From positions 27,192-91,191 of the forward strand of contig JJNX02000002.1 of assembly GCA_000681355.2 (NCBI GenBank): 64,000 nucleotides of DNA, given 5' to 3'. Within the stretch, counting starts at the first letter, position 1, and every line of letters begins with the position of its first letter. The translations under genes were made by a program, and so were the position numbers. The notes beneath the pieces are model-generated. The model saw nothing but the letters and a program-made list of their open reading frames with translations. It made no database searches and had not been told where the DNA came from. This DNA is from Peptococcaceae bacterium SCADC1_2_3 (GTDB taxonomy: Bacteria; Bacillota; Desulfotomaculia; Desulfotomaculales; Nap2-2B). This document shows, in pieces, positions 4,894-54,203 of the stretch.

Positions 4894-5945
4894 TTGGGGA
4901 GGGCATTGTTTTTGAATAAGTCATGTTGCCGCAGGGTTACTTTCATGCTCGTTGTGCCAACCCTGCTATTTTTATTTCTAAGCGGCTGTCAATTTACGAA
5001 AAAGGAGCAGTCGCTTACCGCTAACGGAACCATTGAGGCCACGGAAATAAAGGTCGTGGTTGAGGTTGGCGGAGCATTAAAGAAGCTGTCCGTAAAAGAA
5101 GGAGATCGTGTACAGGCAGGCCAGATCATTGGTCAGTTAGACGAAACATATTACCGGATCCTGGTAGAACAGGCTAAGGCTGGTGTAGCAGGAACCCAGG
5201 CTTCTTTGGCGGAAGCCCGGGCCGGGACCCGCGAACAGGAAATTGAAGCCGCCGGCCGGGAGGTAGATCGTTTAGCGTCTCAGGTGGCCAGCGCTCAGGA
5301 GCAAGTAGCTTTCCAGGAAGATAATTTGAAGCGGGCCAGGGAACTCTTCCAGGCTGGAGCGTTGCCAGAGCAGGAAATGATAACTCAGGAAGTCCATTAT
5401 AATAACGCCCGCCACCAACTGGAAGGAGTCAAAGCGCAACTGGAAGCCGCCAAGGCCAGGCTTGCCTTATTACAGGCAGGCACAGCCGGGAACAAACCAT
5501 AGAACGTTTGACAGCAGCAACCAGACAAAATGAGGGCAGCCTAGAGCTGGCTCAACTAAACCTTAAGAAGACTAGGCTGGTAGCACCAGCCAACGGGATA
5601 GTAGCCGGCTGTAATTTTGAAGAAGGTGAATTAATCCGCCCCGGAGCAGAAGTAGTAACTCTCCTTGATTATAAAAATCTGTGGTTGAATGTCTATGTTC
5701 CGGAAAATAAACTAAGCCAGGTGAAGGTGGGACGACGGGTACAAATCCAGGTGGATACTTACCCGGGTAAGACCTTTTCTGGTCAGGTAGAGTATATTTC
5801 TCCGCAGGCCGAATTTACTCCCCGCAACGTTCAAACCAAAGAAGACAGGGTAAATCTGGTTTTTCAGGTGAAAATCCGGGTGATTGAAGGACAGGAAGAA
5901 CTTAGACCGGGATTGCCGGCCGATGTTAAATTTATTTCCAATTAA
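4894..5945 (+). pseudogene. HlyD-family efflux adaptor, frameshifted
   Basis: ORFs 4894..5502 and 5508..5945 are two halves of one HlyD protein. Removing 2 nt near 5481 restores LLQAGSREQTIERLTAATRQNEGSLELAQLNLKKTRLVAPANGIV. Confidence 0.85.
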
Positions 5946-6050
5946 TCTTGTAATGAAGAATGACTATAAACATGGGCTAAAAATTTATTTTGAGGGATTA
6001 AAGTTGTCTACCGGGTTAATAACAAACAACGGGAATAAGCCAGAGTACGC

Positions 6051-6772
6051 TATTGAAGTAAACGGCTTAAGCAAAAACTTTGGCCCCCTCCAGGCAGTAC
6101 GAAACGTTAGCTTTCAAGTGCCCACCGGCAGCATCTTTGGCCTTTTAGGCCCCAATGGTTCCGGCAAAAGTACTATTATCCGCATGCTCTGCGGACTTAT
6201 GCACCCCAGTGCCGGCAATGGACAGGTAGCTCGGGCTGGATATTGTTACTAAGGCTGAAAACATTAAGGCCAGCATAGGGTATATGTCCCAAAAATTTAG
6301 CCTTTACGAGGACTTAACGGTAACCGAAAACCTGTATTTTTTTGGCAGTATTTATGGTCTGGGCAAACCAGAAATAACCCGGCGGTGTCAAGAACTCTAC
6401 CAAAAGATGAAGCTAAACGGGTTGGAAAAACAGTTAGTCAGCACATTATCCGGCGGCTGGAAACAACGTTTGGCTCTGGCTTGTGCTTTTATTCACCAAC
6501 CCCGGTTGTTGGTGTTGGATGAACCAACTGCCGGGGTAGACCCGGTTTCGCGCCGTCTTTTATGGGATTTATTAGGTGACCTGTCTACTGAAGGAATAAC
6601 TATTTTAGTTACTACCCACTACCTGGATGAAGCCAATCACTGCCACTTGGTGGCCCTAATGAACCGGGGGTTTTTATATGCCTTCGGGCCTCCCGGACAG
6701 TTAGCGGCCGAGGAAGGTCTGGACAGCCTGGAAGACGTTTTTATTAAAATGGCCTCCAGTGGAGGTGATTAA
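6051..6772 (+). pseudogene. ABC transporter ATP-binding protein, frameshifted
   Basis: Walker [10 protein letters not shown] in ORF 5884..6252; signature TLSGGWKQRLALA and Walker B LLVLDEPTAGVDP in ORF 6284..6772. Removing 1 nt near 6231 rejoins [29 protein letters not shown]. Confidence 0.85.
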
Positions 6773-7909
6773 ATGAACTAGCGGCGTTTATTTACCATTA
6801 TGCGTAAAGAATTCACCCAAATCCGCCGTGATCCCCCCAGTTTGATTATTGTTTTTATTATGCCGGTTTTTATGCTGCTGCTTTTCGGTTACGCCGTAAA
6901 CACTGATGTGGATCATATTCCCCTGGCGGTATGCGATCAAGACCAGAGCCAGGCCAGTCGCTTGCTGACGCAAAATCTCATCAACACCGGGTACTTTGAC
7001 CTGGCTTACCAGGTGAAAAACAACGAAGAGTTAAAAGCTCTTTTGGATAGCGGGAAGATCCGGGCCGGACTTGTAATTCCCGCCGGTTATGCCCGGGACT
7101 TGCGCCGGAGGGAGACTGCCACTGCTCAACTGCTGGTGGATGGTACTGACCCTTTAGTTGCCCGTACTGCTTTTTCTGCGGCAGAAATAGTGGGTCAAGT
7201 TAATTCCCAGGAACTGCGGCTAACTGCTTTAGGCAGAGAAGGCCTAACCATTGACCTGCGAGGCCCGGCCATCGACCTGCGCACCAGAGTCTGGTATAAT
7301 CCCGGCCTGGAAAGCTTGAAGTTTAATATCCCGGGTCTGATTGGCCTGATTATGCAAAACGTAACTATGATGCTCACAGCCTTTGCTCTGGTGCGGGAAC
7401 GTGAACGAGGCACCTTAGAGCAATTAATGGTTACTCCGGTAAAAGGGTCTGAACTAATGATTGGTAAGCTTATCCCTTACGTAATCATTGCCTTCGTGGA
7501 TATGGGCCTGGCTTTAAGTATCGGTACCCTATGGTTTAAAGTACCGGTAGCGGGAAGCATTTTTTTACTCCTGGGGTTGACCCTGCTCTTTCTGGTCTTT
7601 GCTTTGGGATTAGGTATGTTTTTCTCCACCATTGCCCGCACCCAACTGCAGGTTATGCAGATGACCATGCTTTTTATTTTACCTAGCGTATTACTAAGTG
7701 GTTTTATCTTTCCCCGGGCCTCTATGCCCTTACCCATCCAATACCTGGGAAATATCATCCCCCTTACCTATTTCCTGGATATATTACGGGGAATCATGCT
7801 TAAAGGCATTGGTATTAACTACCTCTGGGGTGATATTATTCCCTTGCTTGGGTTTGGCCTGGGAATTATTGCCCTGGCTTCGTGGCGCTTCCGGAAGCGA
7901 ATAGAGTAA
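6773..7909 (+). CDS. ABC-2 type permease; TAG at codon 3 of the natural start, possibly rescued by ATG at 6800
   Basis: ATG AAC TAG CGG CGT TTA TTT ACC ATT ATG CGT AAA GAA; downstream LFTIMRKEFTQIRRDPPSLIIVFIMPVFMLLLFGYA and RERERGTLEQLMVTPVKGSELMIGK are ABC-2 permease motifs. Confidence 0.8.
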
Positions 7910-8028
7910 AATAAAAAATCCTTGGTATTCTTTCACTGCAAAAGCAGGAAAAAGACCTGAACTTGTTGAAATATTCATAATAAGCTATCTAAGCTATGGT
8001 ACATAATAGCCAGAGGCGGTGAATATTA

Positions 8029-8841
8029 ATGCCCGGGTTACAAATAGCGGTATGTGTTAAATTTATTCTCGACCCAAAAGATATATCTGAAGAAAGCATA
8101 GATCCTGCAACAGGCACAATAAATCGCACTAAATACAAACTAGTTATTAATCCTTTAGACAAACATGCGCTTTTTGCCGCCCGTCAACTGCAAAAGATAG
8201 CCGGAGGGGCAGTTACCGTAGTTAGTATGGGACCGCCTTCCATTGCTGAAGATTTAACCGAAACTTTAGCCCTAGGTGCAGATCATGCTTTTCTACTTAG
8301 CGACCCGCTATTTGCCGGAGCAGATACATTAGCCACTTCTTACGCCCTGGCCTGCGGCATTAAAAAGTTCGTCAGCGACTTTGATATAATTTTATGCGGA
8401 GCCAGAAGTCTGGATGGAAGCACCGCCCAGGTAGGACCTCAACTGGCAACTCATTTAGAGGTGACTTGCGTAACCAACATATCCGCCTTAAGTTGGAAAC
8501 AGGATGGATTTTTTAACCTCAGGATGAAGCTGGAAGATGGTTATTTGTCTTTCGCCGCCAAACCCCCGGTGCTGTGTACGGTAAACCGGGATCTTAACAC
8601 GCCTCACCCACCAACATTAATGGATATTGTTATGGCTCGAAGTAAAAATGTTGCCGTTATTTCTACCCAAGATTTAGACCTTGATTTAAACCGCGTAGGA
8701 CTAGCCGGTTCCCCTACCCGGTTTAAAGACATGTTTTACCCCCCGTCAAAGCGAAAAAGAGATTTGCTTACAGGTTCACCGGAGGAAATGGTAAAGACAT
8801 TATTTCAAGAATTAAGAACGAAAGGCATGTTCGGCCAATGA
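8029..8841 (+). CDS. etfB: Electron transfer flavoprotein subunit beta
   Basis: IAVCVKFILDPKD...NPLDKHALFAARQL...GGAVTVVSMGPPSIAEDLTETLALGADHAFLLSD. Confidence 0.92.
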   Translation: MPGLQIAVCVKFILDPKDISEESIDPATGTINRTKYKLVINPLDKHALFAARQLQKIAGGAVTVVSMGPPSIAEDLTETLALGADHAFLLSDPLFAGADTLATSYALACGIKKFVSDFDIILCGARSLDGSTAQVGPQLATHLEVTCVTNISALSWKQDGFFNLRMKLEDGYLSFAAKPPVLCTVNRDLNTPHPPTLMDIVMARSKNVAVISTQDLDLDLNRVGLAGSPTRFKDMFYPPSKRKRDLLTGSPEEMVKTLFQELRTKGMFGQ

Positions 8842-37288: not shown

Positions 37289-40200
37289 ATGCCGAGACGA
37301 GACGACCTAAAGAAAATATTAATTATTGGTTCGGGACCTATTATAATTGGGCAGGCCTGTGAGTTTGATTACTCTGGGACCCAAGCATGCAAAGCGTTAC
37401 GTGAGGAAGGCTTTGAGGTGGTGCTGGTAAACAGCAACCCGGCCACCATTATGACCGACCCGGAGATGGCTGACCGTACTTATATTGAACCCATTACTCC
37501 TGAGGTAGTAGCTAAAGTAATTAAAAAAGAACGGCCGGATGCCCTTTTACCGACCCTGGGGGGGCAGACTGCTCTTAACACGGCCGTTAAGGTTGCGGAA
37601 ATGGGCGTGCTTAGCTCTTTTGGGGTGGAAATGATTGGTGCTTCCCCGCAGGTAATTCATAAAGCAGAGAACAGGGAGCTTTTCCGGCAGGCCATGCAAA
37701 ATATTGGCCTGCGTGTTCCAAAAAGCGGTATTGCCCGCAATCGTGAGCAGGCCGGACAAATTGCCCGGGAAATAGGGTTTCCCCTTATTATTCGCCCCAG
37801 TTTTACCTTGGGAGGAACAGGAGGCGGTGTCGCGTACAGCCGTGAGGATTTGGATGTTTTGGTCGCCCAAGGGCTTGACCGCAGTTTGATTCACGAGATT
37901 ATGCTGGAAGAATCTGTTATTGGCTGGAAGGAATATGAACTTGAAGTAATGCGCGATAAAAAAGATAATGTGGTTATTATTTGCAGCATTGAAAACCTTG
38001 ACCCGATGGGGGTTCATACGGGGGACAGTATTACCGTTGCTCCCGCGCAAACTTTAACGGATAAAGAATACCAGTTAATGCGGGACGCGGCCATTGCCAT
38101 TATCCGCGAGATAGGGGTAGAAACAGGCGGCTCTAACATTCAATTTGCGGTTAACCCTGAAAATAGCGAAATGGTAGTCATTGAAATGAACCCGCGGGTT
38201 TCGCGCAGTTCAGCCCTGGCTTCTAAGGTTACGGGCTTTCCCATTGCTAAAATTGCCGCCAAACTAGCGGTAGGATATTATTTAGATGAGCTTCCCAACG
38301 ATATCACCAAGGAGACAAAGGCTTCCTTTGAGCCTACCATTGATTACTGCGTGGTAAAAATTCCCCGCTGGACCTTTGAAAAATTTCCGGATACCGAAGA
38401 TTTAATTACCACGTCCATGAAATCAGTGGGCGAAGTGATGGCCATTGGCCGGACTTTTAAAGAAGCCTTGCAAAAAGGCCTGCGCTCTCTAGAAATTGGC
38501 TGTCCTGGCTTAGATACCGGTTGGCTGAAAAGCTCCTTGCCTTCCCGGGAAGAAATTGAACAAAATCTTCTAACCCCTAACTCCAAGCGTATTTTTTACC
38601 TGGGGGCGGCTTTTAAAGCTGGTTTAAAATGCGAGGAGGTTTATGAACTAACCAAAATTGACCCCTGGTTTTTGCAGCAGGTTAAGCAAATTATAGACTT
38701 AGAGCAGGAAATTGCCGGCACGAAACCTCTACCGTTAGACCGGTTAAAAAAAGCAAAAAAGTACGGGTTTTCCGACCGCCAGTTAAGTATTTTAACATCA
38801 AGCACCGAGGAAGAAATAAGGCAAAAGCGTAAGTCAGCCGGCCTACACCCGGTTTATAAACTGGTGGATACTTGCGCGGCTGAGTTTGAGGCTTATACTC
38901 CTTATTACTACTCCACATACGAAGTAGAAGATGAAGTAAGGGTTGATCCAACCAATAAAAAGAAGGTAATGATTTTAGGGAGCGGGCCTAACCGCATCGG
39001 CCAGGGTATTGAGTTTGATTACTGCTGCGTGCACGCCTCCATGGCCTTGCGGGAAGAAGGCTATACCTCCATTATGGTGAACAGCAATCCGGAAACGGTA
39101 AGTACGGATTATGATATTTCTGACCGGCTTTACTTTGAACCTTTAACCTTAGAGGATGTCCTGCATATTGTGGAAAAAGAAAAACCCTTAGGGGTGATTG
39201 TTCAGTTTGGCGGGCAAACTCCCCTTAATTTAACCATTCCGCTTCACAAAGCCGGCGTTCCAATTTTAGGTACTTCCCCGGACAGCGTTGACCGGGCTGA
39301 AGACCGCAAGCGTTTTCAAGTCCTCCTAAAAAAATTAGGTTTGAGCCAGCCACCAAACGGCACAGCCATAAATTTAAAAGAAGCCATCCAGGTGGCCAAC
39401 TCAATTGGTTATCCGATTGTGGTGCGACCTTCGTACGTTTTAGGAGGAAGGGCAATGCGCATTGTTTATGACGCAGCGGACTTAAAAACCTATATTACCT
39501 CCGCCGTTCTTGCTTCTCCGGAGCACCCGGTGCTAATTGATAAATTTTTAGAAGATGCAATTGAGGTGGATGTAGACGCCATTTCTGACGGAGAAACGAT
39601 TGTTATTGGGGGCATTATGGAACACATTGAAGAAGCCGGTATTCATTCCGGAGACAGCGCCTGTGTGCTTCCCTCCCACACTTTAAAGCGTGAGGTTTGC
39701 GCCCAAATTAAAGAAAGTACCCGGGCATTGGCCAAAGAGCTAGGGGTAATTGGTTTAATGAACATTCAGTACGCGGTTAAAAATGACCTGCTTTACGTGT
39801 TGGAAGTTAACCCCCGTGCTTCCCGCACCGTTCCTTTTGTCAGTAAAGCCACCGGAATTCCTTTAGCCAAACTGGCCACCAAGGTAATGCTGGGTAAAAG
39901 CTTAAAAGAACTGGGATTGACGTCAGAAAAGGAAATAACGCACATTGCAATTAAAGAATCTGTTTTTCCCTTTGACCGTTTTCCTGGGGTGGATATTTTG
40001 CTGGGACCAGAAATGAAATCTACTGGCGAAGTAATGGGCATTGATTCTTCCTTTGGCCTTGCTTTTGCTAAATCTCAGTTAGCCGCAGGGCAAATGCTGC
40101 CTACGGCAGGTAGTGTCCTACTCAGCGTGCGTGATCATGATAAGCCGGCCCTTTACGCGGTAGCCGAAAAGTTTCACCAGATGGGTTTTGGTATTTTGGC

Positions 40201-40507
40201 CACCCGCGGAACAGTTGCCTATTTAAACCAAAAAGGCATTCCGGCCAAAAGAATATTAAAGGTTTCGGAAGGACGTCCTCACGTGGTAGATCGCATTAAA
40301 AACGGGGATATTCAAATGGTAGTAAATACCTCTTTAGGCAAAAGACGTACTCAGGATTCTTACCTAATTCGCCGTGCTTGTGTGGAGTACCGTCTTCCAT
40401 ACGCCACCACTATTGCCAGTGCTCACGCTATGGCTCAGGGTATCGACGCCATCAAGCATAACCGGCTTACAGTAAAAGCAATTCAAGAATACAACTTTGG
40501 TAGTTAG
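37289..40507 (+). CDS. carB: Carbamoyl-phosphate synthase large subunit
   Basis: [65 protein letters not shown]; two ATP-grasp halves. Confidence 0.97.
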
Positions 40508-40528
40508 TAGAGTAAAAAAGAGAGACAA

Positions 40529-40579
40529 GGGGACGGTTCTGAAAAGGATTTAATATATGCTGTCAATAGAACCATCCCC
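40529..40579. repeat. Internally deleted copy of the 36054 repeat
   Basis: GGGGACGGTTCTGAAAAGGATTTAATATATGCTGTCAATAGAACCATCCCC; matches both ends of 36054..36145, about 41 nt of interior missing. Confidence 0.85.
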
Positions 40580-40586
40580 TTGGCTC

Positions 40587-40675
40587 TCCTAACGGGTGCA
40601 AATCACCGGCTGCAAATGAAGCGCATCTGAATTTGCAGTCCGAGTCCGAGTCCGAGTAAATTTGCCTTGTTAGAC
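40587..40675 (-). other. attC-like integron recombination site 1
   Basis: Minus strand GTCTAAC AAGGCAAATTTAC TCGGACTCGGACTCGGACTGCAAAT tcagatgcgcttc ATTTGCAGCCGG TGATTTGCACCC GTTAGGA; R''=GTCTAAC (RYYYAAC), paired arms with unpaired bases. Confidence 0.8.
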
Positions 40676-40698
40676 ATTTTGGGGGTATCTGCCAATAG

Positions 40699-41475
40699 TC
40701 AAAAAATAATATCTGCAAATAAAAGGTCTCTTAATTCAAAGTATTTGTCGTACTCTGAATCACTCATTTCCCCGAACATAGCCTTACGGTCTAAATATAG
40801 ATATTCATTTTTTAACTCCTCAAATTTACTTTTGTTTAATTTGGGGGGTATCTCAAAATCTTCGTCTTCAAAATCATCCTCATCCGATTCGGATGTCAGG
40901 TATGTAAGGTAATGCTGTTTATACAATTTACAATACAATTGATATGGTTCCATTTTAGAATATTTCTCGTAATACTTATTCCATATACCTTCAATAAATT
41001 TCTTTTCTTCATCACTTAAAAGATTTTCCATGTATGTTTTGTACCTGTATTTGTCGAACGATTTTTCCAAATTTTTTGAAATCCATTTATCAAACGATTC
41101 TTTTGCTTCTTTTTTTTCTCCGTTTTTCAAATATGAAAACGCAAGAAATAGACCTTGGTCATAATCAATGGTATTTGAGGTCTTTAAAGTTTCTATTGCC
41201 TTTATATAGTTTCTTGTGAAGAGATATGCTTTACCAAGTTGGTTATCCCATATAAGCTCGAAAGTATCTTTTCTATCAATAATTTTCTGATAAGTTTTCA
41301 CACCGTTGTTTGTATCACCCATTTCAAGATATGAAACAGCAATATCTGATAAAGAAATCATATCTTCAGGATATTTTAAGGCTATCTCTTCTAATTTATC
41401 TATTCTTTGTTGAACATTTTTTGAGTTACGCCATGCATCGTTTCTTTCCTTTTTGCATTCCTCGCTTTTATCCAT
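40699..41475 (-). CDS. TPR-like hypothetical protein (cassette gene)
   Basis: MDKSEECKKERNDAWRNSKNVQQRIDKLEEIALKYPEDMISLSDIAVSYLEMGDTNNGVKTYQKIIDRKDTFELIWDNQLGKAYLFTRNYIKAIETLKTS; TPR-like helical repeats. Confidence 0.7.
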   Translation of the reverse strand: MDKSEECKKERNDAWRNSKNVQQRIDKLEEIALKYPEDMISLSDIAVSYLEMGDTNNGVKTYQKIIDRKDTFELIWDNQLGKAYLFTRNYIKAIETLKTSNTIDYDQGLFLAFSYLKNGEKKEAKESFDKWISKNLEKSFDKYRYKTYMENLLSDEEKKFIEGIWNKYYEKYSKMEPYQLYCKLYKQHYLTYLTSESDEDDFEDEDFEIPPKLNKSKFEELKNEYLYLDRKAMFGEMSDSEYDKYFELRDLLFADIIF

Positions 41476-41498
41476 ATTCTCCCTCCATCATACTACAT

Positions 41499-41635
41499 AC
41501 CTAACGCTTGAGCCCACCTGCCCTTGACACAATGTCTTTGCGGATTAACCCTTAAAAGTATATTGTCTCTTCTGCCAGTGAATATTCAATTTGCCGCACG
41601 GGTGACAAGGGTCAGGTGCAGCGATTTGCTAGCCG
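41499..41635 (-). other. attC-like integron recombination site 2
   Basis: Minus strand GGCTAGC AAATCGCTG CACCTGACCCTTGTCAC ... GTGTCAAGGGCAGGTG GGCTCAAGC GTTAGGT; R'=GTTAGGT matches GTTRRRY, arm CACCTGACCCTTG / CAAGGGCAGGTG has one unpaired base. Confidence 0.85.
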
Positions 41636-41650
41636 TAATGAATATTATTT

Positions 41651-41998
41651 CTATTTCTTGACAGCATCTTTTTCTCTAAGCCACTTTTCTGTTCCGATTT
41701 CCTGTCTCTCAGTAATTTCACTCTGTCGAGCAAGAACAGATTTTTTTGCTTCTTCTATACTCAGAGACGGGTCATAGAAGTCTGTAAACGTTTTGCATGG
41801 AAATTCATCGCATAGACCACAATGCTCTAATTGTTTCTTGTTAATGCAACAATCGTATAATGGACAAACTTCAACTTTCATCTGAGCTGTCCAGAATGGC
41901 TTACCGTTTACATTGCCACATCCTTGGCACTGCTTCTCAAGGTACTCGCAAGTGCCACAATATAACCCGCATACAGGTGCTAATGCCTTGTCAATCAT
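41651..41998 (-). CDS. DUF3795 Cys-rich protein (cassette gene)
   Basis: MIDKALAPVCGLYCGTCEYLEKQCQGCGNVNGKPFWTAQMKVEVCPLYDCCINKKQLEHCGLCDEFPCKTF. Confidence 0.8.
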   Translation of the reverse strand: MIDKALAPVCGLYCGTCEYLEKQCQGCGNVNGKPFWTAQMKVEVCPLYDCCINKKQLEHCGLCDEFPCKTFTDFYDPSLSIEEAKKSVLARQSEITERQEIGTEKWLREKDAVKK

Positions 41999-42326
41999 CT
42001 CTGTCTGCCTCCCTTTGCACGCCAGAATAACAGGCCTTGCAGGGTTCAATCTTAACATCTGCTAATTGCAATGCTTCTGTCTCAATGGATTTGTCTTCCT
42101 CCTTTACTCCTTCAAAGGCTGATTGGAGTAGTTGATACGAGCTGCCATCTTTTAAGGTATCACATATTTTTTCTGTTAATCCCGCAATATCTTGAATCAG
42201 TCGCTCACTTCCATCTTGAATACGAATGGAAACGGGACATCCTGCTCCCAACAAAAATGCAATTCTGCTCTTATCAGACGCCAATGCTTGTTGCAGAATT
42301 TCTATTTGACGATATGGATAGTTCAT
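41991..42326 (-). pseudogene. Chimeric fragment: SIR2-like N-terminus fused to FMN-reductase-like fragment
   Basis: SRIAFLLGAGCPVSIR...LIQDIAGLTEKICDTL (SIR2-like GAG motif), then abruptly LADVKIEPCKACYSG (flavodoxin/NADPH-FMN reductase-like); 111 aa only. Confidence 0.55.
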
Positions 42327-42353
42327 TTTAAAATCCTCTTTATTTTGCTCAAA

Positions 42354-42444
42354 CTACAACGCATGCCTATTTTTTTGAGTACACATAATGACTGAACTCA
42401 TCTGCCGCCAACACTGCGAGTTCGGCTGCAGCGACTTGTTAGGT
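42354..42444 (-). other. attC-like integron recombination site 3
   Basis: Minus strand ACCTAAC AAGTCGCTGCAGCCGAACTCGCAGTGTTGGCGGCAGATGAGTTC...GCATGC GTTGTAG; R''=ACCTAAC. The upstream gene's TAA stop lies in this box, as is usual in cassettes. R' is degenerate. Confidence 0.75.
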
Positions 42445-42717
42445 TTTCTTCTCCTTTACTTTATACTTTTTGGGCAGCAGTGGAATTAAACAACGTAAAG
42501 CCCTATTCACAGATTCCGAGTCTGGAAAATACGTTCGAATATCTGGTTCTAGAATAACTGCGCCCTCCTTTGGCATCACGTCTTTAACAACCGTTGTGCC
42601 ATCCGCCTTATGAACAGTGATCGTATATCCAGCTTGCATGGCCCTATAATGCTTACCACGCACTCCGCCCGTAAAATCATATTCGGCACGCATATCGTTA
42701 CCCTCTACCTGTGCCAT
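42439..42717 (-). CDS. Antitoxin partner of the BrnT-like protein
   Basis: NDMRAEYDFTGGVRGKHYRAMQAGYTITVHKADGTTVVKDVMPKEGAVILEPDIRTYFPDSESVNRALR; directly downstream of the BrnT-like reading frame. Confidence 0.65.
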   Translation of the reverse strand: MAQVEGNDMRAEYDFTGGVRGKHYRAMQAGYTITVHKADGTTVVKDVMPKEGAVILEPDIRTYFPDSESVNRALRCLIPLLPKKYKVKEKKT

Positions 42718-42718
42718 T

Positions 42719-42991
42719 TTAGTCACCCCCTTCTTCATGAAGTTTCCGCTCTGATAATGTTGCCTTACGACAACTGATAATACGTATGTTTGACCTGCGC
42801 TCGGTATAAACCACTACCAGCACACGGCCTTTGTCAGAACTGCCGATGTCAATATACCGTTGTTCATCCACTGAGTGGTCAGGGTCAGGTATCGTTATTG
42901 AGAAGGGGTCGAGAAAAACCGTTATAGCTTCATCAAAACTGACTCTGTGCTTTTTGAGATTCGTTTTGGCTTTCTCTTCGTCCCACTCAAA
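42719..42991 (-). pseudogene. BrnT-family toxin lacking its start, fused to a RelE fragment
   Basis: Open frame without ATG: FEWDEEKAKTNLKKHRVSFDEAITVFLDPFSITIPDPDHSVDEQRYIDIGSSDKGRVLVVVYTERRSNIRIISCRKATLSERKLHEEGGD*. Confidence 0.8.
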
Positions 42992-43176
42992 TAGTTGCCG
43001 ACACGGATGCGATAGCGTCTTGGATATTTCCTCATCGATTTAACGCCATGAATCTTTTGCAATGTTGTGATTTCTGACAAAACCGTAAAAACAAGCTCAA
43101 CAATCTGATCGTAAATAGGCTGCTTGCTTAACTTTTTAAGGTCTTTAAGAAATAGTTTACGATATAAAACCTTCAC
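42992..43176 (-). pseudogene. RelE/ParE-family toxin, C-terminus lost
   Basis: MKVLYRKLFLKDLKKLSKQPIYDQIVELVFTVLSEITTLQKIHGVKSMRKYPRRYRIRVGNY, then runs out of frame into BrnT sequence. Confidence 0.7.
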
Positions 43177-43181
43177 CTTAA

Positions 43182-43397
43182 CTATTCCTCTAAATAAGCC
43201 AACGCTTCTTTGTGATTCAACAAAGGAGTATTTTGGGCTTCATCCATTGCCTTGCTTAGACAGTAATCCTCAATTTCCTCAGATAATTCTTTAATAGAAG
43301 CATCATCTTTTAGAAACAGCTGTCTCCATAGTTCAATGGGAAGCACAACCGCCTTTTGTTGACCGTTTTTGTCTGTCAAATACTCAACTTCAAACAT
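43182..43397 (-). CDS. Antitoxin of the RelE-like toxin
   Basis: MFEVEYLTDKNGQQKAVVLPIELWRQLFLKDD...; small gene directly upstream of relE fragment, RBS taggagg. Confidence 0.6.
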   Translation of the reverse strand: MFEVEYLTDKNGQQKAVVLPIELWRQLFLKDDASIKELSEEIEDYCLSKAMDEAQNTPLLNHKEALAYLEE

Positions 43398-43424
43398 AAA
43401 TAATCCTCCTATTGCATGTGTTAA

Positions 43425-43431
43425 ACCCAAC
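43425..43431 (-). other. Candidate attI/first-cassette core site
   Basis: Minus strand GTTGGGT (GTTRRRY) at the boundary between the first cassette gene and the intI-like intergenic region. Confidence 0.45.
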
Positions 43432-43665
43432 GATTATTATACCGGATCGGTACATTCCCTCAATTTATGGTTAATGATAATATATTTTAATCAAAGAAAC
43501 AAGTAATTATTGAAGAAAAATCTTCTTGACTGCCCTAATTGGTCCATAATAGATATTATATTATGCAGAATCCATATATCGTAGGCAGGAACTTATATGA
43601 GAGAGAAAATGTTACCTTCACAAACCCTTCTTGATTTTCAGTAATATCTGCTTTCACGAAAGCTC

Positions 43666-44243
43666 GTGCCGGAAAAAAGCGTAACCTTCTACGCCTATTG
43701 GGCCAACCGGTATCTCACGTTCTCGAAACGCCTGAAGAATGCTGATGCGGCAGAGGTGCTCCGGATATTTCTTGAGGACCTACAATCCCGGGATAACATT
43801 GCCGACCGGCAGATACAGCAAGCCAAAGAGACCATTCAGCTCTACAGCGATCATTTTCACGGTGGAAAAACGGCCGGGGTTGATGACGACGACGCAAAAA
43901 CGCCCCTCGCCCCTTTCGACAAGGATTTGGTCATGGTAAACATCCGGGAGGCCATCCGTGTGAAACACTATTCTTTTAGCACGGAAAGAACTTATATGGA
44001 TTGGGCAAGGCGCTTTTTCGATTACGCCGGCACTATGAAAGGCGGGCTTCTTCGAGAAACACCGGGCGCTGAAGATATCCGGGAGTTCTTGACGCATTTG
44101 GCCGTCCACAAGAAGGTTTCCGCTTCGACACAGAATCAGGCATTTAACGCCCTCCTGTTCCTGTTCCGGAATGTTTTAAAAATCGAAATCGGCGATTTGA
44201 GCAGCACCATCCGGACAAAGCGTGGACCGAAACACCCTGTCTC
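43666..44243 (+). pseudogene. Integron integrase (IntI-like tyrosine recombinase), C-terminal catalytic part missing
   Basis: VREAIRVKHYSFSTERTYMDWARRFFDYAG...EDIREFLTHLAVHKKVSASTQNQAFNALLFLFRNVLKIEIGDLSSTIRTKRGPKHP is IntI-like N-terminal core-binding sequence; N-terminal extension VPEKSVTFYAYWANRYLTFSKR. ORF then reads into antisense hemL. Confidence 0.78.
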
Positions 44244-45557
44244 TCAAGTGCCGGTAAAGGCTATGGCCTTTTTAAAAGCCTCAATGGTTTGACTAATTTG
44301 CTCTTCCGTATGGCTCAAAGAAATGAAACAGGTTTCAAATTGGGAAGGCGGGAGATAAATTCCTTGGGCTAACATTCGATGGAAGAAACGGGCGTATTTT
44401 TCTGTATCTGAATGACAGGCTGTTTGGTAATCTTTAACTTTTATTGGGGTAAAAAAGATGGTCACCATAGAACCAATATAGTTAATCGTAATTTCTGCTT
44501 CCGCTTCCTGAATAAGGCAAGTTAAATTGCTAACTATATATTTAGTCTTACGGACTAAATCATCGTAGATGCCTGGTTGTTTTAATGTCCTTAAAGTAGC
44601 CAAGCCTGCGGCTACCGCTAAAGGATTGCCCGCCAATGTTCCGGCCTGGTACACTGGTCCAACGGGGGCAACCTGTTCCATAATCTGGCGTTTACCCCCG
44701 TAAGCCCCTACAGGCAAGCCGCCCCCAATTATTTTACCTAAACAGGTTAAATCAGGTTCAATCCCGTAAATTTCCTGGGCGCCGCCATACGCCAGGCGAA
44801 AACCGGTAATAACTTCGTCAAAAATTAATAAAGCTCCGAAACGCCGGGTTAATTCCCGTAAACCTTCTAAAAAACCTGGTTGGGGTAAGATAACCCCCAT
44901 ATTACCGGCAACGGGCTCAATAATTACCGCGGCAATATTTTCCCCTTCTCTGGTAAATACTTCATTCAGAGCTGTCAAATCGTTGTAAGGAACAACAATT
45001 GTTTCCGCAATAATATTGGGCGAAATACCGGCACTGGTTGGCATTCCAAGCGTAAGCGCACCTGAGCCTGCTTTAACTAACAAATAATCGGCGTGTCCGT
45101 GGTAGCAACCTTCGAATTTTATTATTTTATTTCGTCCGGTATATCCCCGGGCTAACCTTAAAGCACTCATGGTTGCTTCAGTCCCAGAATTAACCAGGCG
45201 AACCATTTCTATCGAGGGTACGGCCGCTACAATTTCTTTGGCTAAAGCTGTCTCCAGCTCAGTGGGGGTACCAAAGCTAGTACCTTTATTTAATGTTTCT
45301 TCCAGGGCTAAAATTACCCTGGGATGCCGGTGGCCTAAAATTAAAGAACCCCAACCACCCAGATAATCTACGTACCGGTTTCCGTCAATATCATAAAGAA
45401 ATGCTCCTTCACCTTTTTCCATAAAAACAGGTTGGCCGCCGACAGCTTTAAAAGCCCGCACCGGGCTATTTACCCCACCAGGAATAAACTGTTGGGCCTT
45501 TTGGTAACTATCTATAGATTTTGAGAAATTTTGAGACACATATTTCACCTTCTTCAA
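44244..45557 (-). CDS. hemL: Glutamate-1-semialdehyde 2,1-aminomutase
   Basis: [58 protein letters not shown]...[37 protein letters not shown]. Confidence 0.96.
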
Positions 45558-45619
45558 TCTCTTCGCGTGTATAGTTAATTGTTGATGTATAATTCGCTAA
45601 GCAATTATAAGTTAAATTA

Positions 45620-45949
45620 TTACTTTTTATTATCTGTATTATCTTCAAGCCACTTAAGATAATCCTTGCTTCCTGTAACCAGAGGCAGGGCTATAACTTC
45701 GGGTACTTCGTAAGGGTGCATTTCTATTATGGTACTTTCCAGTTCACTGTAAAGTTCTTTTTTGGTCTTAATAAGACATAACCATTCTTCAATTTTTTCA
45801 ATTTTATTATGCCACCAGTAGGTGCTTATTATTGGTCCTACAATTTGAACGCAAGCGGCTAGTCTTTTAGCTACGATTTTTTGAGCGATTTCTTCGGCCG
45901 TATCTTTATTTTCCGTAGTAGTAATTACCTGTAAATAATTTTCTAACAT
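45620..45949 (-). CDS. cutA: Divalent cation tolerance protein CutA
   Basis: VITTTENKDTAEEIAQKIVAKRLAACVQIVGPIISTYWWHNKIEKIEEWLCLIKTKKELYSELESTIIEMHPYEVPEVIALPLVTGSKDYLKWL. Confidence 0.95.
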   Translation of the reverse strand: MLENYLQVITTTENKDTAEEIAQKIVAKRLAACVQIVGPIISTYWWHNKIEKIEEWLCLIKTKKELYSELESTIIEMHPYEVPEVIALPLVTGSKDYLKWLEDNTDNKK

Positions 45950-46083
45950 TAGACACCATCCTATACCCTGTTTTGAATGAAGAAATAAAAGAAAAGGCAG
46001 GGGTTAAAAGGTTAAATTAAAGTTTTTGGCGGCTTTTAACTTCCTACCTTATAGTAACAGTAGCTTCAGAAAATCAAGCTTTT

Positions 46084-48948: not shown

Positions 48949-49049
48949 ATTTATACCCCCCCCATAACATTTAACCACTGTTAAACGAAAACGCGTTCCT
49001 GTTTTTGTCCCATAACTTGCCGGTGTTTGAACAGGGGTTCAATACTACG

Positions 49050-49595
49050 TTATGCTCCGTCTGCTTTTTGCACCGCCTTATGTTTCTCATTGGCTAAACA
49101 TCTCTGCAAGTATGCTTGAACCTCGTTTGTTCGCTTTTTCAGAATTTCGCCGGCGTAATCGGTGACTACATGCGGAAATTCCTGATTGATTTCGTTCTGT
49201 AAGTTGGGTATGGCACGCGTTTCCAACCTTCCAATCATAATATCACCATAAGGAATACCCTTCGCTTTAGCAATTAACCAATCAGAAAACAGCCCCAACC
49301 GCAAGACCGCGAAGGCTGCTTCATATCCGTCCTTGGCTTTTATCTCCAAGCCTTTAATGTCCTTTTGTCCAATCTGCACTGTGTCGCTAAGTGTCGTCTT
49401 CACCTCGATCGAGAAGTTGGGGAATGTCGAGTGGTCGCTAACGTCTATATCCACTCCTTGAACAGAACGCTCGACAACCCGCTTAAAACCTAAGCGACAA
49501 AAGGAGATCGCCAATAGAATCTGGCATACTTTACCAAACTCAGTCGGATGTCGTTCGCGCACTCTCTTTAGCCTGTCGAATGTTCCGGCATCCAT
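49050..49595 (-). CDS. PD-(D/E)XK nuclease-like protein (defence candidate)
   Basis: FGKVCQILLAISFCRLGFKRVVERSVQGVDIDVSDHSTFPNFSIEVKTTLSDTVQIGQKDIKGLEIKA; D...EVK spacing compatible with PD-(D/E)XK. 3 nt from the ATPase gene. Confidence 0.5.
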   Translation of the reverse strand: MDAGTFDRLKRVRERHPTEFGKVCQILLAISFCRLGFKRVVERSVQGVDIDVSDHSTFPNFSIEVKTTLSDTVQIGQKDIKGLEIKAKDGYEAAFAVLRLGLFSDWLIAKAKGIPYGDIMIGRLETRAIPNLQNEINQEFPHVVTDYAGEILKKRTNEVQAYLQRCLANEKHKAVQKADGA

Positions 49596-49598
49596 CGG

Positions 49599-51758
49599 TT
49601 ACTCCACCTTAACTTCTGGTCCTGTACCCTCAGTCCACTTTTCCATCGTGTAGATTCCTTTCTTCTTCGTCAACTTGCTGCGTAGGTGTGTGCCAAAATC
49701 ATCCTCTGACGTGGCGATGACAAGTTGCTTGTCCTCCAGCACACGATTGAGAATATTGGCGAGCCTCTCCTTATGAGCAGGGTCAAGGCTCTGCGAAGGA
49801 TCATCAAGCAAAATAGAGGCGATATTGTGCGTGAGGTCCTTCGAGGTCGCCAGTGCCAGGAAGATACTCAAGGCTGCGCAGTTTATGTCCCCCTTGTTCA
49901 AAATCCGTAATGCAACTTCGGACTCTCCATCACGTACTGCCATCACCTCGTATTTTTCTGGGTCGATCTCGATGTCGGGGTAATCGCTGCGCTGAGCCAG
50001 TTCACGATAGATGGCAGAAATCGCGGTCTTCGTGGATTTAATTTTTGCTTCGGCAGTTGTTCGCAACACGGCTTGAATCGCCTCACGAATTGTCTCAATC
50101 CTATCGCCGAAGGTGTGGGCAGCGCTCCGCGATTCTCCGGCCTTCTTGTATTCAGGGCTATCCTTGACTTTGGACAGGTCATCAATACCTTTTCGAAGAT
50201 TAAGCACCGCGATGATTAGCCTTACGTCTTCCAACCCATCATCCATTGCGTTCAGGCGGTTGTTGCTTTGCTCGACGGCAGTACGAATCGCCGCTAAATC
50301 CTCGTCCACCTTTGCAATCTCTTGAGTGACGAGAACCAACGGGTCTTCCGCATCTGAAATCTTTTTCTTTAGAGCAGTGGCGATTGCATTGGTGGAGTCT
50401 CGAACCTCTTTGCTCTTAATGCTAACTTGCAGTTGCAAGGATTCAACCTGTCGAATCACTCCCTTGAGATTCGTTTGCTCAGACTCCAGATTTCGAATTT
50501 CCTCCTCAATCAGTGCGAAGGTACCCTTCATCTCCTCCCGCCACGTTTTTAAATGATCGCGCACATGGACAGCATCAAAGTCACCCCGCTGACAAACTGG
50601 GCATTCCTTCATTTCTTCACTTTTTGCAGATTCCAGAAGTTTCAATGTCTCTCGAATAACGCCGGCACGGTTGTTTATAGTGGTGAGACGATTCCTTGCG
50701 TTAGGCAGCAGTTCATCTTTGACTTTCCTCAACCTTTCCGCAACGACCAATGAGTCGCCGTGCGTGTTCTTCAGTTCCTGAATCTTGCCATCCAGTTCCC
50801 TCAGGGTATTTCGCTTGCCTTCAAAGTTGGTTTTCAGACTGTTGAGTTCATTTCTGCGCTCCAGCAATTCAGTCTGACGAACAAGGACAGGTTGCTTATC
50901 CCGTAACTTCCTGACAGCCCCCTTTCCCGAGTTTACAAACGGCTCTAAATCCTCAAGAATCTGGAACCCGGGCAAGGTTGGCGACGTCAATCCATAGTCG
51001 TTAGCAAAGCCCTCGATTGTCCTTGCAACGGCTTCGCAACACACCTTTGCTCCGTTGAGGGACAGTTTTTCTTGTTGAATACCGCGCGCCTTGGCATCAT
51101 TCTCAGCCCGAACCAAATCATTGCGCTTAATCTCCCTTGTCATCGTTACGGTTTGCTCAATACTGTTAAATTGACTATCTATCTCACGCAGCTTATCAGG
51201 GACTTTCGCTCGCGTGATTCCCTCCAACTGGTTGCGCAAATCTGCAAGTCCCATGAGCCGATCAAGCGCGTTCTTTCGGGCACTAGGTGATTCAACAAGC
51301 AACGCATTAATGACCTCTTGGTGAAGATGAACGCAACTGATGTAATCAGGCAGTTCAACTCCCAGCATGACGCGTAGTCCTGCCTCGTCTTCGTGGAGGC
51401 TGCCGTCATTCATTTGATAGTAAAATTGGGGCTGTCCACGTCGTTTGTGGTCGCAACGATAAACCTTAAGCAGTTCTCCATCCCGCTCAAAAGTGACTTC
51501 CACACTTGCCTCACTTGACCTTTTGTTTCTGACCAACCAATCTTTACGCTCCTGTATTCCCGTGTCACTCATGTTAGCGACCTTGTTACCAAACATACAC
51601 CACTCAATAGCACTCAACGCGCTGCTTTTGGCTCCTCCCTGAATCCCTAAGAGCAGGGTGCATGGTTCGTCGAACCTAAATTCCTTGGTACCCGCTTCTT
51701 CCGGAAACCCCCGAAATCCTTTCACTTTGACCGAGGCCAGCCGATAGTTTCCCATCAC
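49599..51758 (-). CDS. SMC/Rad50/RecF-like ATPase with CPVC zinc hook
   Basis: VKGFRGFPEEAGTKEFRFDEPCTLLLGIQGGAKSSALSAIEWCMFG; coiled coil; MKECPVCQRGDFDAVHVRDH hook; LNKGDINCAALSIFLALA; ASILLDDPSQSLDPAHKERL. Confidence 0.85.
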   Translation of the reverse strand: MMGNYRLASVKVKGFRGFPEEAGTKEFRFDEPCTLLLGIQGGAKSSALSAIEWCMFGNKVANMSDTGIQERKDWLVRNKRSSEASVEVTFERDGELLKVYRCDHKRRGQPQFYYQMNDGSLHEDEAGLRVMLGVELPDYISCVHLHQEVINALLVESPSARKNALDRLMGLADLRNQLEGITRAKVPDKLREIDSQFNSIEQTVTMTREIKRNDLVRAENDAKARGIQQEKLSLNGAKVCCEAVARTIEGFANDYGLTSPTLPGFQILEDLEPFVNSGKGAVRKLRDKQPVLVRQTELLERRNELNSLKTNFEGKRNTLRELDGKIQELKNTHGDSLVVAERLRKVKDELLPNARNRLTTINNRAGVIRETLKLLESAKSEEMKECPVCQRGDFDAVHVRDHLKTWREEMKGTFALIEEEIRNLESEQTNLKGVIRQVESLQLQVSIKSKEVRDSTNAIATALKKKISDAEDPLVLVTQEIAKVDEDLAAIRTAVEQSNNRLNAMDDGLEDVRLIIAVLNLRKGIDDLSKVKDSPEYKKAGESRSAAHTFGDRIETIREAIQAVLRTTAEAKIKSTKTAISAIYRELAQRSDYPDIEIDPEKYEVMAVRDGESEVALRILNKGDINCAALSIFLALATSKDLTHNIASILLDDPSQSLDPAHKERLANILNRVLEDKQLVIATSEDDFGTHLRSKLTKKKGIYTMEKWTEGTGPEVKVE

Positions 51759-51770
51759 CTGTCCACCTCC

Positions 51771-52004
51771 TTACTTCAGTCTCATCTTTTTCATCAACGC
51801 CCCGTGGGCATCATTGTAAGCACTATGTAGTTCTTGCATCTTAGCGCCGACAATGCCGGCCACTCCTTTTGACGAATTGCTTTCAAACGCCGCGAGGACT
51901 TCTTTATAGAGGTCTGTCAACGCTTGCTCGTGCTTCGAATCAGTCGCTCGACTCTTCAGTTCTGCAAAGACCTTTTCGTTGTCTGTCATTTGCCGTTCCT
52001 CCAA
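51771..52004 (-). CDS. Small protein, first gene of the SMC-ATPase operon
   Basis: MTDNEKVFAELKSRATDSKHEQALTDLYKEVLAAFESNSSKGVAGIVGAKMQELHSAYNDAHGALMKKMRLK; 12 nt upstream of ATPase. Confidence 0.6.
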   Translation of the reverse strand: MEERQMTDNEKVFAELKSRATDSKHEQALTDLYKEVLAAFESNSSKGVAGIVGAKMQELHSAYNDAHGALMKKMRLK

Positions 52005-52181
52005 CCTTTTGTAATTCGACGGACCGTTCTGACCTCACTGAAACAAACCAATAAGAATTCTTACTGCTTCCTCAATGGGCGCAATTTCATATTACGATTC
52101 CACTATAAATGGAGTTTTTGCGAAAAAAATTTGGGTAAGTGTCGTCAGGCACGAACCTTTTATGCTGTGTGAGGCGACGTC

Positions 52182-52559
52182 CTATAGGAACAAAATTTCC
52201 ACATCCCTTATCTTTTCAAAATCCTTGTTCATTGTAACCACTTTCAACCCACAATATTTGGCCATGCTGTATTGATAAGCATCATCAAAATCTAAATTCA
52301 GACTTTTCCTGACGTTTACAACCTCTCTATACAGTTCCATCGGCAATGAGAGAAGTTGGGTAGTGGGTAAGACGTCTTCAACAAATTTCTGAAGAATGTC
52401 CTCTTTGCCGTATTTGAACAAGATTACACCAATAGAGTGCAAAGAGAAATCTGTTATGTTGAGATTTCCGATATTGTTATCCAGAAACTTCTTACAACTT
52501 TCCTTCTTATCCTGCCTCAACAGTATTTCTAAAAATACATTCGTATCCACTAAAAACAT
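52182..52559 (-). CDS. PIN-domain toxin (VapC-like)
   Basis: MFLVDTNVFLEILLRQDKKESCKKFL...NLDFDDAYQYSMAKYCGLKVVTMNKDF; PIN acidic residues. Confidence 0.85.
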   Translation of the reverse strand: MFLVDTNVFLEILLRQDKKESCKKFLDNNIGNLNITDFSLHSIGVILFKYGKEDILQKFVEDVLPTTQLLSLPMELYREVVNVRKSLNLDFDDAYQYSMAKYCGLKVVTMNKDFEKIRDVEILFL

Positions 52560-52777
52560 TATCTCCACTCCAAAGCCCTATGTTGCAATTCAACAGAAGT
52601 GAATTTCTCCCGTATCTCAGATAAGCCCCCTTCCCAGTCAAACTTGAACTTCTTTGCCTTGGTTTCCTTGCCCTTGTACTTCTTTAGCAGAAACTCCATA
52701 TAATCCAAAACCTCCCTCCTTAAATCTTCAGGGAGCTCTTGCATTTTCACCTCGATTTCCTTTTCATATTCATACAT
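52559..52777 (-). CDS. DUF2281/VapB-like antitoxin
   Basis: MYEYEKEIEVKMQELPEDLRREVLDYMEFLLKKYKGKETKAKKFKFDWEGGLSEIREKFTSVELQHRALEWR; adjacent to PIN gene. Confidence 0.8.
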   Translation of the reverse strand: MYEYEKEIEVKMQELPEDLRREVLDYMEFLLKKYKGKETKAKKFKFDWEGGLSEIREKFTSVELQHRALEWR

Positions 52778-52889
52778 GATTATAACCATTCCTTTCTAGG
52801 CACAAAACCTTAATGAAAGCATTTCTTACAGACTTTTCGCCTCCTTAATATATTCTATCTCTGTTTACTTAAAGGATGTCGCCCATCGG

Positions 52890-53022
52890 CTGAGCGTATC
52901 TGAAGTCCAGCCGTTAGGCTGGATTTAGGCGGAATGCTGAAGGTACGAAGCCAGATACGCTCTGTTGTCCGAGTGCGATAGCACCGAGCAACCCAAAGGG
53001 TTGCGAGAGTTCCGAACCCCGC
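52890..53022. other. Hairpin-dense structured non-coding segment
   Basis: GAGCGTATCTG (52892) pairs with CAGATACGCTC (52952); CCAGCCGTTAGGCTGG, GTGCGATAGCAC and GCAACCCAAAGGGTTGC hairpins. Confidence 0.6.
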
Positions 53023-53034
53023 TCATTTCTTCGT

Positions 53035-53370
53035 TTATTTTTCAATAATATCTCCCAATTTACTTTTCAAAACAGGAATATCCTTTTTAACCGTATCCCA
53101 TACAGCATCTATATCCACACCTAAATAATCATGTATCAGTTTGTCTCTCATTCCTGCTATATCTTTCCAGGGTACTTCAGGATATCTTTCTCTAATCTCT
53201 TTAGATAACCTCTTTGTAGCCTCACCTATTATCTCGATCTGCCTTATTACCCCATCCTGTGTAAGATGATTATCTATGAATTCTCCATATCTTATACCGT
53301 GGGTATATTCCTCTATTCTGGATATGGCATCTAAAACGTGCTTTAGATACACAGAGTCGTCTTTTTTCAT
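53035..53370 (-). CDS. HepT-like (DUF86) toxin
   Basis: [47 protein letters not shown]4HXY. Confidence 0.88.
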
Positions 53371-53651
53371 CCGTAAATTACCTCCATCTCTTTTCTTATC
53401 GTATCAATTAAATATGGACTTATGGATTTTTCCGTCAACAAATCCACTTTTATTCCTAAAACTTCAGATAACTCTCTTTCTATCCTCACAAGTTCAAGAA
53501 GGCTTTTTCTTCCTGAAAATTCCACGATAACGTCTATATCGCTTTCAGGTTTCTCTTCTCCTCTTACATAAGAACCAAAGATAGCTATTTTTCTCGCCCC
53601 TTGATTTTTAAGGGCTTGGACAATTTTTTCGAAGACTTCTTCTCTATTCAT
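53367..53651 (-). CDS. MNT-type nucleotidyltransferase (MntA-like antitoxin)
   Basis: [25 protein letters not shown]. Confidence 0.88.
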
Positions 53652-53685
53652 GCTTATTCACCTCTCAAAGCAGGGTTCGGAATTT

Positions 53686-53885
53686 CGGACAACGGGGCGC
53701 GGGGTTTGCGAAGGGGTCGCGTAGCGCACCCTTTGGGTGCAGCGAAGCGAAACCGCAAACCCCGAAGATGGGCGAAGTTCGCGAGCGAAGCGAGCGAACA
53801 GAGACCATCAAGGGGCGAAGCCCCGCGCCCCGATGGGTGGGAAGCTTATGAGCGAGCGAAGCGAGCGAATTTCCCGCCCATCTCA
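53686..53885. repeat. GC-rich nested palindromic repeat region
   Basis: GGGGCGCGGGGTTTGCG...CGCAAACCCCG, two copies of GCGAGCGAAGCGAGCGAA, GGGGCGAAGCCCC, GGGCG(GGA)...TTCCCGCCCAT. Confidence 0.75.
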
Positions 53886-53960
53886 TTCACAGACGACAAT
53901 GTCGTTTTTTGTTCAGTTTTGGAGGTATAGACGACTATGTCGGATATACCTTCCTATAGA

Positions 53961-54083
53961 CTAACTGCTTTTATCTTCCTGAAAGATCTGGTCTAAAGGA
54001 TTTCTTATTCTCATAAAATCTTTGTTGCTTACATGAGTATATATCTCGGTAGTTTTAGAGCTTTTATGTCCTAATTGCTTTAT
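53961..54083 (-). pseudogene. C-terminal remnant of a tyrosine recombinase
   Basis: Minus strand IKQLGHKSSKTTEIYTHVSNKDFMRIRNPLDQIFQEDKSS*; conserved LGHxSxxTTxxYTHVS catalytic tail only. Confidence 0.85.
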
Positions 54084-54203
54084 GCTTTAGGTTATCAATT
54101 GAGGAGAGGATCGCTACAATTTCTTCCTTGCTTAAAATTATGGCTGGGATTGCTTCGGCGTTTCCTTACTCAGTTCGGAACGCCTTACAATCTTTAGGTA
54201 TAT

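Follow-up and report, generated by a model that had tools for sequence, protein, structure and literature searches.

Lamassu (ABC-3C) anti-phage systems are operons in which the effector, the middle component (MC) and the ATPase follow one another in this order (LmuA-LmuC-LmuB); LmuC, the middle component, is absent only from some, two-gene, Lamassu systems. LmuA consists of an enzymatic N-terminal domain and a C-terminal docking domain. LmuB is a sensor of about 650 aa, often zinc-hooked, whose effectors are exchangeable and include PD-(D/E)XK nucleases; its catalytic glutamate is generally replaced by a glutamine, and it probably hydrolyzes ATP slowly (PMC10586767). With the DdmABC system of V. 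cholerae, phage infection leads to abortive death through a Cap4 effector (PMC12409362).

Rad50-Mre11 (SbcCD) associates a zinc-hook ATPase with a metallophosphoesterase (Mre11/SbcD). PbeABCD/DndFGH-type systems have a related SMC-like ATPase, with a 56-85-aa gene before the PbeC gene and another small gene after it. Wadjet (JetABCD) uses an SMC-like ATPase and a nuclease against foreign DNA.

The locus described here lies in a window of 64,000 nucleotides from Peptococcaceae bacterium SCADC1_2_3 (contig JJNX02000002.1). It consists of three genes, which code for a small protein, an ATPase and a candidate nuclease, and is probably related to the Lamassu anti-phage systems, as a rare member that had not been described.

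Organization of the locus

The preliminary description of this DNA had read three packed genes on one strand, with VapBC, HepT/MNT and an integrase remnant as neighbours. The ORFs are indeed present, on the minus strand, at 49050-49595, 49599-51758 and 51771-52004, separated by 3 and 12 nt, and Pfam recognizes the neighbours as VapC/DUF2281, HepT/MNT and a truncated phage-integrase SAM domain (Table 1). The integrase fragment lies some 5 kb from the trio and belongs to a different insertion.

The translation of gene 1 likely starts at the ATG at 51989 and not at the TTG at 52004, because a GGAGG sequence just upstream of the ATG spans this TTG; the homologue in another phylum (L003, see below) agrees with the later start. 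Gene 2 starts at GTG 51758 or ATG 51755. A promoter scan gave no excess, and the terminator count was about 1 sd or less from that of shuffled sequences. Tandem GCGAGCGAA units at 53772-53869, which translate as SERSER-like repeats, form a short repetitive element adjoining the HepT/MNT pair.

Table 1. Positions of the features of the locus in the window, and of the homologous genes in contig L003.
Feature	Position	Strand	Description
Gene 1	51771..51989	-	72-aa small protein, ATG 51989; outside known families; 65% identical to L003 5774-5998; dN/dS 0.20
Gene 2	49599..51758	-	718-719-aa Rad50/SMC-like ABC ATPase; PADLOC LmuB match, Pfam AAA_23/SMC_N; 73% identical to L003
Gene 3	49050..49595	-	181-aa probable PD-(D/E)XK nuclease, judged from its motif
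Mobile cassette	49053..52090	-	extent of DNA homology shared with Acidobacteria MAG contig JACQSX010000046.1 (79% identity, 3042 alignment columns, 3.04 kb)
Cassette 3' junction	49036..49050	.	chromosomal homology with cassette-less congeners G399 and G401 stops here; G400 homology reaches 49191, inside the nuclease gene
VapC-type PIN toxin and DUF2281 protein	52182..52789	-	neighbour outside the system; Pfam PIN E=5.9e-13, DUF2281 E=3e-18
HepT/MNT toxin-antitoxin pair	53035..53651	-	neighbour outside the system; Pfam HepT-like E=3e-30, NTP_transf_2 E=2e-18
L003 trio	5774-5998, 6001-8151, 8158-8712		same order as in the window; 65, 73 and 78% aa identity

The ATPase

Gene 2 codes for an SMC/Rad50-type zinc-hook protein which is LmuB-like by profile. 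The motifs that had been quoted for it are all found: a P-loop variant, GIQGGAKSS (residues 37-45), in which the canonical last glycine is an alanine; a CPVC zinc hook (residues 385-388); a degenerate signature, LNKGDINCAALS (residues 619-630), which contains LNKGD, with an asparagine in place of the serine; and the Walker B motif LLDDPSQSLD (residues 649-658), in which the catalytic glutamate is an aspartate. The ATPase of L003 has the hook and carries identical changes in the P-loop, the signature and Walker B. Where LmuB generally has a glutamine (PMC10586767), the ATPase of the trio thus has an aspartate, which by analogy may be a substitution in the same spirit. Together with the loss of the signature serine, it suggests that the protein hydrolyzes ATP slowly.

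A comparison with the PADLOC models, one of the checks proposed in the preliminary description, matches the ATPase to LmuB (PDLC03859, E=8.8e-36, residues 3-698, 122 bits; 8.6e-24 for a second LmuB model), ahead of the best PbeC model (3e-13, 47 bits), and genes 1 and 3 have no acceptable match. The specificity of these models was controlled with LmuB-, PbeC- and DndD-type proteins gathered from the same phylum: the four PbeC-type proteins and the DndD-type one strongly favour the PbeC/DndD models, and the five LmuBs favour the LmuB models. In Pfam, the protein matches AAA_23 (E=4.7e-11) and SMC_N (E=1.1e-10), and the Rad50 hook model with an E value of only 0.095. The DDPxQxxD form of Walker B is seen in LmuBs which have MC1 partners, and the LmuBs of L004/L005 have DQP.

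A structural model of gene 2, built from 22 sequences derived from the loci, has a pLDDT of 70.5; the heads and the hook flanks are confident and the middle of the coiled coil is poor. The first Foldseek match is Rad50 (7zr1, E=3.6e-18), and the LmuB of Salmonella Lamassu comes soon after (9hqx, E=1.7e-11). The fold therefore cannot discriminate between Rad50 and LmuB.

In a PMSF tree of the ATPase head domains, eight LmuBs form one clade (support 100/99), three MC1-type LmuBs and L020 a second one (99/96), and PbeC/DndD a third one (98/95). The two ATPases of the trio form a separate deep branch, apparently outside the LmuB clades. The best tree sets them beside the MC1-type LmuBs, with a support of only 76/75, and p-AU values of 0.27-0.47 (0.37 for SbcC) do not reject a pairing with SbcC, with PbeC/DndD or with all LmuBs.

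The candidate nuclease and the small protein

Gene 3 probably codes for a nuclease, judging from its motif and from its Rad50-like partner. The motif, GVDIDV-x(8)-FSIEVKT, occupies residues 47-68 (GVDID 47-51, IEVK 63-66), which confirms the earlier reading GVDIDV...SIEVKTT, and it is conserved in L003. The strict form, a pattern written with gene 3 in view, is present in 0 of the 259 other proteins sampled; the loose form has a chance rate of about 0.03 per 181 aa. The C-terminal region resembles no family searched. The preliminary description would have given up its reading had structure prediction shown gene 3 to lack a nuclease fold; the structure predicted from a two-row alignment (pLDDT 44) is too poor to decide for or against such a fold, and its Foldseek matches are meaningless; this low-confidence model has a helix-helix-strand-strand-strand succession at positions which fit a nuclease.

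Searches of Pfam, NCBIfam, PHROGs and PADLOC with genes 1 and 3 gave no credible match, and the PDB sequence search gave chance matches only. Gene 3 does not match the LmuA, Cap4 and CTD models; among the controls, Pfam recognizes CTD1 in two of three LmuAs. Similarly, gene 1 does not match the MC models, and Pfam recognizes MC1 (MComp1) in three of four control MCs; L037 is the MC1-type control in which recognition fails. In HH comparisons, gene 3 is not above shuffled controls against YraN, VRR-type and Hjc-type nuclease sets, and genes 1 and 3 are at noise level against the sets of LmuA, MC, PbeB-position and PbeD-position proteins.

Gene 1 was also considered as a PbeB, which it matches in position and size, but without profile similarity. 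In the PbeABCD-like operons L059-L064, a 56-85-aa gene precedes PbeC, at the PbeB position; no PADLOC model recognized the examples tested.

A second copy in another phylum

One close relative of the trio was found, in contig JACQSX010000046.1 (L003) of an Acidobacteria groundwater MAG, using exact peptide seeds on a collection of genome contigs with one genome per species (84,980 species); short exact peptide patterns may miss distant relatives in other phyla. The preliminary description had made its three-gene reading depend on the co-occurrence of the three homologues, and in L003 they do occur together and in the same order.

The homology between the window and L003 is confined to 52090-49053: it begins some 100 bp ahead of gene 1 and stops where gene 3 ends. 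Since it is limited to the cassette and the other contig is from another phylum, the cassette has moved between phyla. The dN/dS ratios between the two copies (NG86) are 0.20, 0.22 and 0.26 for genes 1, 2 and 3, and third-position changes dominate; this supports that all three genes are coding, and not ORFs that arose by chance, and they are under purifying selection. Together they form a conserved and co-transferred unit.

In L003 the cassette is flanked by 42-nt inverted repeats, 95% complementary, which are also present at an IS-like gene with transposase-type HTH domains; this suggests that the cassette was captured by an IS in the Acidobacteria MAG. Inverted IS-like ends are seen at L003 4946-5679 and 8851-8988, on either side of the cassette.

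Gain, loss and rarity

The malic-enzyme flank continues without the cassette in two congeners, G399 and G401: the homology stops at about 49036-49040, and then comes a gene which, from our own reading of its sequence, we call CotF-like. In the congener G400, a DNA search detected the junction together with the terminal 142 nt of gene 3 (96%). Next come a fragment with a methyltransferase-like SPPYN motif, an AbiEii gene and then the CotF-like gene. The cassette was therefore inserted before the split from G400, in which it was eroded. Presence and absence among the congeners correspond to gain and loss of the cassette.

A more distant relic is found in G756, from another family of the same order. 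There, two pieces of the ATPase (residues 130-223 at 36-37%, residues 549-664 at 27%) are directly followed by a piece of the candidate nuclease (residues 96-167, 32%, E=2e-4), which indicates that the order ATPase then nuclease is old. This relic adjoins a DUF488 gene and a McrBC-like pair (McrB-like AAA and DUF2357/PDDEXK_7). The two relics, in G400 and in G756, are independent, and both have defence surroundings.

The phylum (399 genomes), the class (113), the phylum of the MAG (297) and relatives of the MAG (149) were surveyed with either protein or with a two-row profile; nothing came up but the two intact copies and a single distant relic. The plasmids, phages and viral contigs searched hold no relatives of the trio. 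All these searches together brought up two intact copies and two relics. The lineage is very rare, and its rarity limits the evidence but also makes the find new.

Other rearrangements are seen in this part of the genome. A 3.8-kb stretch, 40498-44267, is missing from the congener G401, where the segments that match its flanks, 37366-40497 and 44268-46052, adjoin each other. The truncated phage-integrase SAM-like ORF (43666-44292) is located in this stretch, which is a second, separate insertion. The malic-enzyme and proA sides flank a single defence/toxin-antitoxin interval at 49040-54200 in the window, whereas in three congeners the two sides are found on separate contigs and have other neighbours; the interval is likely a rearrangement breakpoint or hotspot. 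In G399 (L055 4401-6542), 365- and 320-aa genes located past the CotF-like gene are another occupant of the region.

Relation to known systems

The trio resembles Lamassu in that one operon encodes a small protein and a candidate nuclease together with an SMC-like zinc-hook ATPase of some 700 aa. The DDPxQ Walker B motif is that of MC1-type LmuBs, and a CPxC hook is common, although not universal, in LmuB. However, the order is small protein, ATPase, nuclease, whereas in the LmuB loci of the phylum LmuA (327-522 aa) and the MC (about 150-250 aa) come first and LmuB comes last wherever the flanks are complete (the first genes of L035 and L069 are incomplete or atypical). The small protein (72 aa) and the effector (181 aa) are far shorter than the MC and LmuA, and gene 3 has no recognizable C-terminal docking domain. 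As gene order and the families and sizes of the small protein and of the effector differ, the trio lacks the set of features that defines Lamassu. The preliminary description had proposed a "divergent Lamassu-like or separate system". This wording is fair, since the ATPase is hooked and LmuB-like and the trio recurs in the same order, but membership of Lamassu proper is not supported; the working principle may be shared.

With PbeABCD the trio shares a related SMC-like ATPase whose gene lies between two small genes, but the ATPase favours LmuB over PbeC models, genes 1 and 3 are unlike the proteins at the PbeB and PbeD positions, and the cassette has no PbeA helicase. Regarding Wadjet, the comparison is based on the literature, apart from weaker Foldseek hits. 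The trio lacks kleisin and KITE subunits, it has a short zinc-hook ATPase in place of JetC, and its nuclease is a different one.

Possible function

The genomic context suggests an anti-phage function, and we give somewhat better than an even chance to a mobile three-gene defence cassette which works like Lamassu. Two copies of the Rad50/LmuB-like ATPase would join at their hooks and heads, and the dimer would recognize features of foreign DNA, such as ends, hairpins or the stalled-replication structures of phages and plasmids. The 72-aa protein may be a subunit or an adaptor of the ATPase complex, and thereby a functional stand-in for LmuC. The 181-aa PD-(D/E)XK-type nuclease would be kept inactive on the ATPase; the engagement of DNA would activate or release it, and it would then cut DNA, which would end in the loss of the element or in the death of the infected cell. 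By analogy with DdmABC, phage infection would lead to abortive death. This sensor-effector scheme is the most economical account. In favour of it are the LmuB profile match, which true PbeC/DndD proteins do not share, the CPVC hook, the DDPxQxxD Walker B and the Rad50 fold of the ATPase, the conservation of the trio across phyla under purifying selection, the two relics beside defence genes, the gain and loss among congeners, the fit of the gene 3 motif to PD-(D/E)XK, and the published picture of LmuB as a sensor with exchangeable effectors (PMC10586767). Against a Lamassu-like cassette, genes 1 and 3 match no Lamassu component, the model of gene 3 has a pLDDT of 44, the tree places the ATPase with a support of 76/75, the closest solved folds are those of Rad50 rather than LmuB, and the lineage is very rare.

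It is possible, and we put it forward tentatively, that the trio is a separate defence family and no subtype of Lamassu, in which an independent lineage of Rad50-like sensors has paired with a small subunit of its own and with an orphan family of nucleases.

The main rival of the sensor-effector scheme is a direct-acting machine similar to SbcCD (Mre11-Rad50), with a PD-(D/E)XK nuclease in place of Mre11. The ATPase would grip ends or hairpins and the nuclease would trim foreign DNA, without gated suicide, and the machine might still be defensive. Indeed, the heads, the fold and the zinc hook are Rad50-like, Rad50 chains come first among the structural matches (E=3.6e-18), the p-AU of 0.37 for a grouping with SbcC does not reject it, and the gene of the candidate nuclease starts 3 nt after that of the ATPase. 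This reading is nevertheless unlikely. The sequence profile favours the LmuB models, and the P-loop, the signature and Walker B are degenerate; the aspartate and the lost signature serine suggest slow hydrolysis, as proposed for LmuB (PMC10586767). The trio also has an additional small gene, which would code for another subunit, and it is mobile and rare, not housekeeping. Moreover, gene 3 has no family match to the Mre11/SbcD metallophosphoesterase, and no phosphoesterase was recognized in the cassette shared with L003.

That the trio is a true, highly divergent Lamassu with a rearranged order, in which gene 1 would code for a cut-down LmuC and gene 3 for a minimal LmuA, is decidedly improbable. 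The LmuB profile match, the position of the ATPase beside the MC1-type LmuBs in the best tree (76/75) and the DDPxQxxD motif common to these LmuBs argue for it; on the other hand, operons with complete flanks end in the ATPase, after a 327-522-aa effector and an MC of about 150-250 aa, and the HMM and HH tests show no relation for genes 1 and 3.

A module for DNA repair or for the maintenance of a mobile element, and not for defence, is very unlikely: Rad50-like proteins are repair enzymes and the cassette of L003 lies between 42-nt inverted IS-like ends (95% complementary), but extreme rarity, transfer across phyla and loss in congeners fit defence better, and defence or toxin-antitoxin genes are near three of the four sites. 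It is least probable of all that gene 3 is not a nuclease and that the trio acts otherwise, for instance as a toxin module: the loose motif can arise by chance (about 0.03 per 181 aa) and neither fold nor profile supports a nuclease, but the strict motif is in 0 of 259 other proteins (with the pattern made with gene 3 in view), the low-confidence model has its helices and strands in the right places, and the partner is a Rad50-type ATPase.

Implications

If the trio is functional, SMC-based immunity extends to a lineage whose effector (181 aa) and cofactor (72 aa) are far smaller than those of Lamassu, and the cassette would be a minimal system for asking how a Rad50-like sensor gates a nuclease. 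The probable nuclease belongs to a family which is absent from all the libraries searched. If the trio is a separate family, the combination of an SMC-like DNA sensor with an exchangeable killer nuclease arose more than once. Because two phyla carry the cassette intact, and close relatives have either a relic or an empty site, its spread and its loss are directly traceable.
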